This document shows positions 1 through 4,210 of a stretch of 64,000 nucleotides of DNA, piece by piece. The position numbers and the translations under genes are program-made. The notes under the pieces are model-generated. The model worked only from the letters and a program-made list of their open reading frames with translations, searched no databases and was not told the DNA's origin. Source of the DNA: Nocardiopsis ansamitocini (GTDB lineage Bacteria > Actinomycetota > Actinomycetes > Streptosporangiales > Streptosporangiaceae); assembly GCF_030268225.1 (NCBI RefSeq), contig NZ_BSQG01000001.1:423299-487298 (forward strand). The letters are read 5' to 3'. Numbering within the stretch: position 1 is the stretch's first letter; each line of letters opens with the position of its first letter.

Positions 1-127
1 TCGTTCACCGCTCCTCGCTCGCTACGCCACCGGCGAGAGAAGCGCTACGCGCAACCGCCACCGACGACTCCGCTCGCTGCGTCAGGCTCACTCCGCCGCC
101 CCCGAACACAAGGATCGCGGGTACCTG
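1..127. repeat. 170-bp-period direct repeat, copy 1 (cut by window edge)
   Basis: Bases 1-127 are identical to bases 171-297, so the period is 170 bp. The copy may extend left of the window. On the minus strand it encodes the first codons of what looks like carA (VPAILV) followed by a Gly/Ser/Ala-rich tail and a stop. The sequence is full of short GCGTAGCG- and GAGCGAGG-type words, unlike the neighbouring pyr genes. Confidence 0.9.
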
Positions 128-130
128 CAT
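5..130 (-). pseudogene. Second carA-like start, again ending early in the repeat
   Basis: An ATG at 130 preceded by GGAGGAG with a 9-base spacer opens a 41-residue frame beginning MQVPAILVFGGGG. It is the same frame as at 175-318, repeated. It has a better ribosome site than the first copy but ends at the same TGA. It shows that the repeat unit carries its own initiation signals. The functional carA may begin at the last copy, left of the window. Confidence 0.35.
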
Positions 131-170
131 GGTTTTCTTCTCCTCCGTAGGACGGCCGTGCGCCGCCTGG

Positions 171-297
171 TCGTTCACCGCTCCTCGCTCGCTACGCCAC
201 CGGCGAGAGAAGCGCTACGCGCAACCGCCACCGACGACTCCGCTCGCTGCGTCAGGCTCACTCCGCCGCCCCCGAACACAAGGATCGCGGGTACCTG
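171..297. repeat. 170-bp-period direct repeat, copy 2
   Basis: This is an exact copy of bases 1-127, starting 18 bp downstream of the pyrC stop codon on the minus strand. The 43-bp spacer between copies (128-170) contains, on the minus strand, a GGAGGAG ribosome site and an ATG that restarts the same N-terminal codons. A tandem duplication, or an assembly collapse of a longer array, would both produce this picture. Confidence 0.9.
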
Positions 298-318
298 TGC
301 CTGGCTGCTTGTTGTCAC
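175..318 (-). pseudogene. carA: Interrupted 5' end of carA (carbamoyl-phosphate synthase small subunit)
   Basis: A GTG at 318 overlaps the pyrC stop codon by four bases (GTGA), the usual layout of coupled pyr genes. The reading frame starts VTTSSQAQVPAILV. The VPAILV part matches the N-terminus typical of actinobacterial CarA, where PAxLVLEDGR follows. Here the next residues are FGGGGVSLTQRAES and the frame stops after 47 residues, inside the 170-bp repeat. Assignment to carA rests on six to eight residues plus operon position, so it is an inference. The frame could instead be a short coupled leader ORF ahead of an intact carA lying outside the window. Confidence 0.4.
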
Positions 319-1610
319 TGGACCTTCCCATCGAGGACCGTCGGGATACCGCGCAGGAACGTCGCTGCGACCCGACCGGGCAACCGCATGCCCCGGTAGG
401 GGGTGTTCGCGCTTTTGGAGACCATGGACGCGGCGTCGACCACGCGTTCCGCAGCGGTGTCGTAGAGCGTGATGTTGGCGGGTTCGCCGATCACGAGCGG
501 GCGGCCGTGACCGGCCAGTCGGCCGATGCGTGCCGGGATCGCCGACATTCGCTCAGCCACCCCCGCCCAATCCAGAAGCCCGGTGTCGACCATGGCGTGC
601 TGCACGACCGAGAGCGCGGTCTCCAAGCCGATCATTCCCATTGCGGCGTTGGCCCACTCCGTCTCCTTGGCCTCGACCGGGTGCGGGGCGTGGTCGGTGG
701 CAACGCAGTCGATGGTGCCGTCGGCCAGCGCCTCACGCAGCGCCTGGACGTCCTCGGCGGTGCGCAGAGGCGGGTTGACCTTGTAGATCGGATCGTAGCT
801 CTCGGCGAGCTCGTCGGTGAGCAAGAGGTGGTGCGGGGTGACCTCTGCGGTCACGTCGCAACCGCGGCTCTTGGCCCAGCGGATGATCTGCACGGACCCC
901 TTGGTGGAGACGTGGCAGATGTGCAGGCGGGAGCCGACGTGTTCGGCGAGCAGGCAGTCGCGGGCGATGATCGCCTCTTCGGCCACCGCCGGCCACCCGC
1001 CCAGTCCGAGACGGTCCGAGACCTCGCCCTCGTTCATCTGGGCGTGCTCGGTGAGGCGGGGCTCCTGGGCGTGTTGGGCGACGACACCGTCGAATGCCTT
1101 GACGTACTCCAGGGCGCGGCGCATCAGCAGCGCGTCGGAGACGCACATACCGTCGTCGGAGAACATACGGACCCTGGCCGCGGAGTCGGCCATCGCACCG
1201 AGTTCGGCCAACCGCTCGCCTCCCAGGCCCTTGGTCACCGCGCCGATGGGCTGCACGTCGCAGTACCCGGCCTCGCGGCCGAGCCGCCAGACCTGCTCGA
1301 CGACTCCGGCGGTGTCGGCGACGGGGTCGGTGTTGGCCATCGTGCACACGGCGGTGAACCCGCCCATGGCAGCGGCGCGGGAACCACTGGCGACGGTCTC
1401 CGCGTCCTCGCGACCGGGCTCGCGCAGGTGGACGTGGATGTCCACCAGCCCGGGCAGGGCGACGAGGCCGGCGGCCTCGACGATCTCGGCGCCCTCAGCG
1501 GACAGGTCGGGGCCGAGGTCGGCAATGATCCCGTCGCGCACGAGGATGTCGGCGGGCTCCCCGCCGAGGACGCGGGCGCCCCTGATCAGGTAGGTCGTGG
1601 TCTGGCTCAT
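315..1610 (-). CDS. pyrC: Dihydroorotase
   Basis: The enzyme cyclises N-carbamoyl-aspartate to dihydroorotate, step three of pyrimidine synthesis, in the cytoplasm. The 431-residue length is normal for the type I family. The metal-binding motif HVHLREPG lies at residues 59-66, and a CVATDHAPH motif near residue 305 carries the catalytic Asp. It is the third gene of the pyrR-pyrB-pyrC operon, with a 17-base gap after pyrB. Its own stop overlaps a GTG that probably starts carA. The start has a modest upstream GGGGAGA. No missing catalytic residues are apparent. Confidence 0.96.
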   Translation of the reverse strand: MSQTTTYLIRGARVLGGEPADILVRDGIIADLGPDLSAEGAEIVEAAGLVALPGLVDIHVHLREPGREDAETVASGSRAAAMGGFTAVCTMANTDPVADTAGVVEQVWRLGREAGYCDVQPIGAVTKGLGGERLAELGAMADSAARVRMFSDDGMCVSDALLMRRALEYVKAFDGVVAQHAQEPRLTEHAQMNEGEVSDRLGLGGWPAVAEEAIIARDCLLAEHVGSRLHICHVSTKGSVQIIRWAKSRGCDVTAEVTPHHLLLTDELAESYDPIYKVNPPLRTAEDVQALREALADGTIDCVATDHAPHPVEAKETEWANAAMGMIGLETALSVVQHAMVDTGLLDWAGVAERMSAIPARIGRLAGHGRPLVIGEPANITLYDTAAERVVDAASMVSKSANTPYRGMRLPGRVAATFLRGIPTVLDGKVQ

Positions 1611-3715: not shown

Positions 3716-4210
3716 ATGCCATCCGAATACGCAAAGTCTCTGGGCGCGCGATTGCGCGCCATCCGCACCCAGCAGGGCTTGTCCCTGCACGGGGTCGAGG
3801 AGAAGTCGCACGGGCGGTGGAAGGCCGTCGTGGTCGGTTCCTACGAGCGCGGCGACCGCGCCGTTACCGTGCAGAAGCTGGCCGAGCTGGCTGACTTCTA
3901 CGGTGTGCCGATGTCGGAGCTGCTCCCGGGCGGGGCCGCGCCGTCGCCGCTGGCCCCGACGCCCAAGCTGGTCATCGACCTGGAGCGCATGCAGCAACTG
4001 CCCCAGGACAAGGCCGGGCCGCTCGCCCGCTACGTCGCCACCATCCAGAGCCAGCGGGGCGACTACAACGGACGCGTGCTGTCCATCCGCCAGGAGGACC
4101 TGCGCTCGCTGGCCGTGATCTACGACCGCTCGCCGGGCGACCTCACCGAGGAGCTCATCAACTGGGGCGTGCTCGACCCCGAGGCCCGCCGCGCGGTGGA
4201 CGCCTTCTAG
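3716..4210 (+). CDS. bldD: Developmental master regulator BldD
   Basis: BldD is a DNA-binding repressor of sporulation genes that is turned on by tetrameric cyclic di-GMP. The 164-residue protein has an XRE-type helix-turn-helix at about residues 8-70 (SYERGDRAVTVQKLAELADF). The C-terminal domain has the c-di-GMP signature RxD-X8-RxxD, seen here as RGD and RQED eight residues apart, so ligand binding should be retained. The start has GGGGAG and GAAGAAG upstream. The gene is monocistronic between pyrR (divergent) and a terminator hairpin. Possible autoregulatory half-sites lie about 230-255 bases upstream. Confidence 0.96.
   Translation: MPSEYAKSLGARLRAIRTQQGLSLHGVEEKSHGRWKAVVVGSYERGDRAVTVQKLAELADFYGVPMSELLPGGAAPSPLAPTPKLVIDLERMQQLPQDKAGPLARYVATIQSQRGDYNGRVLSIRQEDLRSLAVIYDRSPGDLTEELINWGVLDPEARRAVDAF

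Follow-up and report, generated by a model that had tools for sequence, protein, structure and literature searches.

Mycobacterial interspersed repetitive units (MIRUs) go back, reportedly, to Supply et al. in 1997, and Rickettsia palindromic elements (RPEs) are said to have been described by Ogata et al. in 2000 and 2002. According to the available excerpts of a 2025 review, MIRUs seem to be mobile, have start codons as their insertion sites and carry an open reading frame (ORF) of their own that is coupled at -4 nt (PMC12548453); the units at senX3-regX3 are given as 77 and 53 bp in another source available in part (PMC4213456). RPEs, in the passages at hand of PMC10969869, are about 150 bp long and often lie in frame inside Rickettsia genes, and REPs, in those of PMC3733652, measure 20-40 bp, commonly form dimers of opposite units and can lie inside repair genes.

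Here we describe a repeat between pyrC and carA in an actinobacterial genome (G000; 5.53 Mb, 42 contigs), seen at the edge of a stretch of 64,000 nucleotides (G000:C1:423299-487298) that we call the window. The repeat is real and not confined to one locus; its anatomy is well supported, and from that anatomy we infer a relay mechanism. As far as the passages on MIRUs go, both are short tandem units at co-directional gene junctions (here pyrC-carA and nuoC-nuoD, among 13 junction arrays), and both have an ORF coupled at -4 to its neighbours, which for our element is known from sequence anatomy. The MIRU lengths of 77 and 53 bp (excerpts of PMC4213456) likewise leave a remainder of 2 on division by 3, the remainder needed for one -4 overlap in each unit. 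The element differs from MIRUs in that the window genome is non-mycobacterial, the carriers being the window's own family (f1) and a second family (f21), in that copies also lie in frame inside genes, and in that the units at carA and nuoD duplicate the start of the downstream gene. With RPEs, as excerpted, it shares a small, palindrome-like make-up and in-frame positions in unrelated genes, our element measuring about 80-105 bp and occurring in both orientations, but its host is actinobacterial and it also forms tandem arrays with relay ORFs at junctions. REPs and GTAG/CGTC-tagged palindromes are likewise dispersed hairpins, some of them in genes, repair genes included, whereas our unit is about 80-105 bp long and repeats head to tail (both comparisons with the available part of PMC3733652); unlike REP/RAYT systems, it is not accompanied by a Y1 transposase match (PF01797, E 1e-10) in G000 or in G023, another carrier of arrays. 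By description, the element would appear to work like a MIRU at junctions and like an RPE in genes; because its host range differs, we file it as neither. Searches of the open-access literature brought up no description of it.

A repeat that touches start codons is easily misread as a damaged gene or a fault of assembly. From the way stops, starts and unit lengths add up, this repeat would seem to be built, or to have been filtered by selection, to keep translation going between or inside genes. If that is true, it offers a natural set of many junctions for testing translational coupling, may account for uncertain start sites and for some of the N gaps in the group's draft genomes, and is a candidate for a principle common to MIRUs and RPEs, a comparison of which we did not find in the literature passages available.

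Anatomy of the pyrC-carA array

Bases 1-127 and 171-297 of the window agree at 127 of 127 positions with a spacing of 170, exactly as the earlier note had described, and chance is excluded; Tandem Repeats Finder does not list the repeat, of which the window holds fewer than two full units. On the minus strand the first identical block (171..297) includes the duplicated carA codons QVPAILV, and the second lies at 1..127. A sequence model (R1), built from 18 sequences with the window's element among them, places element copy 1 at 170..268 (minus strand, 73.7 bits; L006:1670-1768) and copy 2 at 1..98 (minus strand, 72.2 bits; L006:1501-1598), the end of the latter abutting an assembly gap of 100 N at the left edge of the window. 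A 43-bp leader (128..170, minus strand) holds a ribosome site, GGAGGAG (146-140), and an ATG (130-128), in agreement with the restart previously noted one period on, and an identical leader precedes carA left of the gap (L005:4858-4900). The 170-bp unit is therefore composite: about 100 bp of it belong to the dispersed element, which is joined by the leader (ribosome site and ATG included) and by a duplicated part of the carA start. The order on the gene strand is pyrC, carA-like start codons, element, leader (GGAGGAG and ATG), carA-like start codons, element, gap, leader and carA.

Beyond the gap, on the same strand as pyrC, lies an intact carA of 378 aa (family TIGR01368 by family search) that begins MQVPAILVLEDGRVFRG. 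The sequence left of base 1 does continue into carA, past 100 N, and QVPAILV is indeed a CarA start. The suggestion of a portable start signal also bore out: each unit contains one, and the final start segment, which lies outside the window to its left, immediately precedes the real carA. A breaking of carA by the repeat is not supported, since a start overlaps each of the two stops in the window and carA, further downstream, is intact. The gap at the edge, the GTGA over both stops and the dispersed element within the unit are features beyond that earlier reading. The array also contains the first 40 bases past the gap, precisely 170 bases (one period) ahead of the gap, and with its edges thus in register with the repeat the gap fits zero, one or more whole units. 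The pyrC-carA junction of G000 holds at least two copies of the element, and the proposal of a variable-number array is plausible.

The stops and starts of this array interlock. pyrC (dihydroorotase; 315..1610, minus strand; NF006836, TIGR00857) lies upstream of the array, and its TGA stop (317-315) overlaps by 4 nt, as GTGA (318-315), the GTG start (318-316) of a first relay ORF (175..318, minus strand), which confirms an overlap already noticed from the sequence. By ORF reading this frame encodes 47 aa, MTTSSQAQVPAILVFGGGGVSLTQRAESSVAVARSASLAGGVASEER, and its stop (177-175) shares 4 nt with the next GTG (178-176), from which a second relay ORF of 57 aa (5..178, minus strand) runs in frame through the carA-type ATG at 130-128. 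The stop of the second ORF (7-5) overlaps a further GTG (8-6), a third GTGA, whose frame runs into the gap. One 4-nt overlap per unit requires a period of 2 mod 3, as 170 is. The array reads as a relay from pyrC toward carA, probably passing ribosomes to the next gene.

We consider it likely, from the sequence, that the structure is a tandem array of a dispersed hairpin element that forms a relay, having been inserted where the pyrC stop and the carA start overlap and accompanied by a leader and a duplicated stretch of the start of carA. Ribosomes ending pyrC would re-start on each relay ORF and would then be handed to carA; insertion would thereby keep carA translation going, with each unit adding an extra SD-ATG. 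The copy number of the array would change through recombination between units, and the element itself would spread as non-autonomous DNA, tolerated as nearly neutral to translation.

The pyrC-carA junction in related genomes

We searched 60 genomes (G000 included), the best 30 of which gave loci; the junctions of 29 relatives were read (L250-L278), and 26 were placed, the script leaving L253, L254 and L273 unplaced. Among these best 30 of 60 genomes, 18 of the 26 placed junctions are empty, the pyrC stop overlapping the carA start as ATGA, GTGA or TTGA, in frame. Empty sites include those of G008, G018, G030 and G021, the last being the closest relative by CarA (96% over a 120-aa query); the closest named CarA is that of Streptomonospora nanhaiensis (85%). 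The comparison with relatives called for in the earlier note also recovered the same array in a member of another genus, G023, whose assembly is one contig of 6.68 Mb. Here two 170-bp units, 169/170 identical, lie ungapped between pyrC and carA, and the chain is unbroken into carA, with GTG-started frames of 48, 57 and 396 aa. The units of G000 and G023 agree in 134 of 173 aligned columns; near identity within an array together with divergence between genera suggests that the units within an array are homogenised.

Positions 1-318 of the window match 11 of 59 relatives at E 0.001, and over 1-297 only G023 does so (78%); G007 matches in the leader. The pyrC-carA junction of G007 (L252) carries a single degenerate small ORF that retains the 3' end of the element and is possibly a decayed relay. 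This small ORF connects pyrC to carA and is rich in GCAGTG-like short repeats. At six junctions (L262, L265, L270, L274, L275 and L276) the two genes are separated by different spacers or leaders, 50-251 nt long. The idea of a small mobile element fits: the element, putatively mobile, is dispersed in G000 and its relatives, and the site is empty in G021.

A second array at nuoC-nuoD and the dispersal of the element

A search of the genome for other copies, as had been proposed, found the element also at nuoC-nuoD of G000 (L003:1400-1870; contig C6, about 101.2-101.7 kb; genes named by family search), in an array with a period of 152 in which each unit duplicates start codons of nuoD. In the first unit the ORF (50 aa) has its stop joined, as ATGA, to the ATG of that same unit, and the remainder crosses a gap. 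At E <=0.1, R1 has five matches in G000, four of them strong and in the two arrays, the fifth weak (0.06) and elsewhere; a 30-base element pattern with <=3 mismatches found nothing in this genome beyond the two carA copies. The nuoC-nuoD site is empty, with an ATGA overlap, in six of 11 relatives (G010, G021, G030, G031, G108 and G112), while G023 has one element there and G018 a different spacer. G006, G007 and G008 have short stretches, remnant-like by eye, that finish, ahead of the start, with a site of the GGAGG or GAGGGG type.

At E 0.01, R1 finds at least 50 copies in G021, at least 20 in G023 and at least four in G030, and none in G012, G018 or G031, with 150 candidates scored per genome. 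With 13 candidates scored per genome and E 1e-4, the element is present in at least 93 of 297 genomes of the family (G000 included), from 31 of 68 genera; judged by its named relatives, this family is probably Streptosporangiaceae as GTDB defines it. Six of ten named genomes match at E 0.01, clearly so Streptosporangium saharense, Nonomuraea glycinis and Streptomonospora sp. PA3, and weakly Nocardiopsis lucentensis, Actinomadura barringtoniae and Actinomadura sp. WMMA1423; at this threshold no match was found in Streptomonospora nanhaiensis, Nocardiopsis quinghaiensis, Glycomyces fuscus or Actinocorallia populi. Several weak matches to DNA or model (e.g. L014, L016, L017 and L248) are unlike the element when read, and L158 has no R1 match at E 0.01. 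Rfam gave nothing up to E 1 for seven loci, and a distant blastn search with positions 1-318 of the window gave no match among plasmids and phages.

Copies inside genes and copies at junctions

The flanking frames of 45 clusters in G021 and G023 indicate two kinds of sites. Nineteen clusters are in frame inside one gene (13 sense, six antisense), and in 12 the flanks belong to two frames, or to a single frame that a stop interrupts; the other 14 were placed in neither class, in part through a limit of the script, since it misfiled even the carA array of G023 as 'not coding on both sides'. Part of the copies may occupy plain spacer. The in-frame hosts named by Pfam number eight (seven in G021 or G023, the eighth in Streptomonospora sp. 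PA3): DNA polymerase III alpha (dnaE), DHBP synthase/GTP cyclohydrolase II (RibBA), RecG, a UvrD-type helicase with HRDC, an acyl-CoA dehydrogenase, a lantibiotic dehydratase, a PD-(D/E)XK/UvrD_C protein and an ABC exporter. Junction copies named by family search lie at gatC-gatA and at a hisA-type gene-hisF in G023, and at dnaK-grpE in G020. At L168 (G021:C1:5266700-5281600), four copies, three antisense and one sense, are in frame within one frame of more than 4600 aa.

Unit lengths differ between the two kinds of sites. We measured 32 tandem arrays, of which the eight in genes all have a period of 105 (0 mod 3 in 8/8) and 13 at junctions have periods of 87-170 (0 mod 3 in 2/13; Fisher P 2.2e-4), a comparison that leaves out 11 unclassed arrays and is between arrays that are partly orthologous (dnaE in G021 and G108; carA in G000 and G023) and hence not fully independent. 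The junction class is by sequence reading, with 8/13 reaching the downstream gene (L003 and L224 across N) and the window array ending in a gap; L181, L190, L206 and L220 were taken as junctions by such reading and were not passed by the script. One junction exception, L209 (period 87), is a single fused ORF of 55 codons, as the rule predicts.

A test of chaining started from 103 clusters (47 + 33 + 23 loci), 53 of which are free of N and, by the script's call, flanked on each side by a sense gene; L195 and L197 were left out as the same places as L190 and L194, and L192, L193 and L248 as weak. By -4/-1 overlaps alone, 34 of the 53 loci chain into the downstream gene where 21.8 are expected from dinucleotide shuffling of the element between unaltered flanks (P ~1.4e-6, an optimistic value, as shuffles chain often at single-copy sites, orthologous loci are present and the 53 include a few copies inside genes), and 19 fail to chain. 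These counts indicate that coupling is enriched, not universal, and that the excess is moderate.

A predicted hairpin

In a structure-free alignment of 73 copies (72 distinct), 13 pairs reach 91.7% pairing against 76.6% when shuffled, and they covary with a score of 0.466, where shuffles give 0.204 and slid structures at most 0.106. These figures are biased in the hairpin's favour, as it was predicted on the very alignment used for counting. Both sides have changed in 11 of the 13 pairs, which 27 of 500 shuffles equal. Four single copies, when folded, show no unusual stability, seven of eight folds being less stable than shuffles (z of 2.85, 1.70, 1.92 and -0.91 as RNA; 1.04, 0.87, 0.48 and 1.89 as DNA), so that it is covariation which supports the hairpin. 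U-G is the commonest pair at one position, and common U-G pairs would suit an RNA of the sense strand better than DNA.

A possible wider reading and alternative explanations

A wider reading may be offered more tentatively, namely that one hairpin family persists in gene-dense genomes by two rules: in genes it would insert in frame and contribute a spacer peptide, whichever its orientation, and at junctions it would form a chain of coupled small ORFs that passes ribosomes on, recombination between units then making copy number a means of tuning how far the following gene is translated.

As to how the element spreads, it might be a hairpin mobilised by a Y1 transposase (HUH, RAYT or IS200-type), as is thought for REPs. 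The covarying hairpin fits this, as does the presence of the element in 49 of 109 genomes with a Y1 match against 44 of 188 without (odds ratio 2.7, P 1.6e-4, kinship ignored), but no mobilising enzyme was found for it: G000 and G023, both carriers of arrays, have no PF01797 match at E 1e-10. Copies in head-to-tail arrays, and U-G pairs of a kind that would suit RNA better than DNA, point the same way, and we regard this mechanism as unlikely. If it did apply, it would supplement the main explanation, as the way in which the element spreads, rather than contradict it.

The genes near the array, pyrR, pyrB, pyrC and carA, are clustered by family search, and upstream ORFs are able to control translation, so a leader specific to pyrimidine synthesis could be imagined, an attenuator or upstream-ORF control of carA whose response is set by copy number. 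Yet the same element lies at nuoC-nuoD, gatC-gatA, the hisA-type gene-hisF and dnaK-grpE, and inside dnaE, ribBA and recG, and most relatives read have no such leader at pyrC-carA, which makes a pyrimidine-specific role improbable. On the opposite strand, bldD (NF050110; window 3716-4210, plus strand) adjoins the pyr genes.

An assembly artefact, a possibility raised in the earlier note, could take the form of a scaffolding error that doubled a contig end. The gaps lend this some colour, for 100 N cut the carA array with edges in register and 98 N interrupt the nuoD array with edges overlapping by 2 bases in register. G023, however, has the same two-unit structure with period 170, ungapped in a single contig, and the element is foreign to carA; doubt is thereby confined to the copy number across the gap, and an artefact as the source of the repeat is very improbable. 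At L224 (G028:C19:187770-187938) a tandem pair of elements ends at a run of N, which again suggests that such arrays can break assemblies.

A plain local tandem duplication of the carA start, with no special element and with the restarts as by-products, would explain the duplicated start and the local identity of leader and element copies, but is hardly credible given that the middle of the unit is not carA but an element with conserved ends and covarying pairs, which recurs at nuoC-nuoD of G000, in at least 93 of 297 family genomes and at unrelated genes.

Occurrence beyond the family

In a sample of the class, 31 of 394 genomes match: 19 from the window's own family and ten from family f21, with one weak match each in f16 and f28. 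At two f21 loci, L229 and L240, units stand before genes that by eye are ABC-permease-like and nuoE-like. These units duplicate about 22 bp of the downstream gene start, and the target, again by eye, resembles the 5' end of the element.
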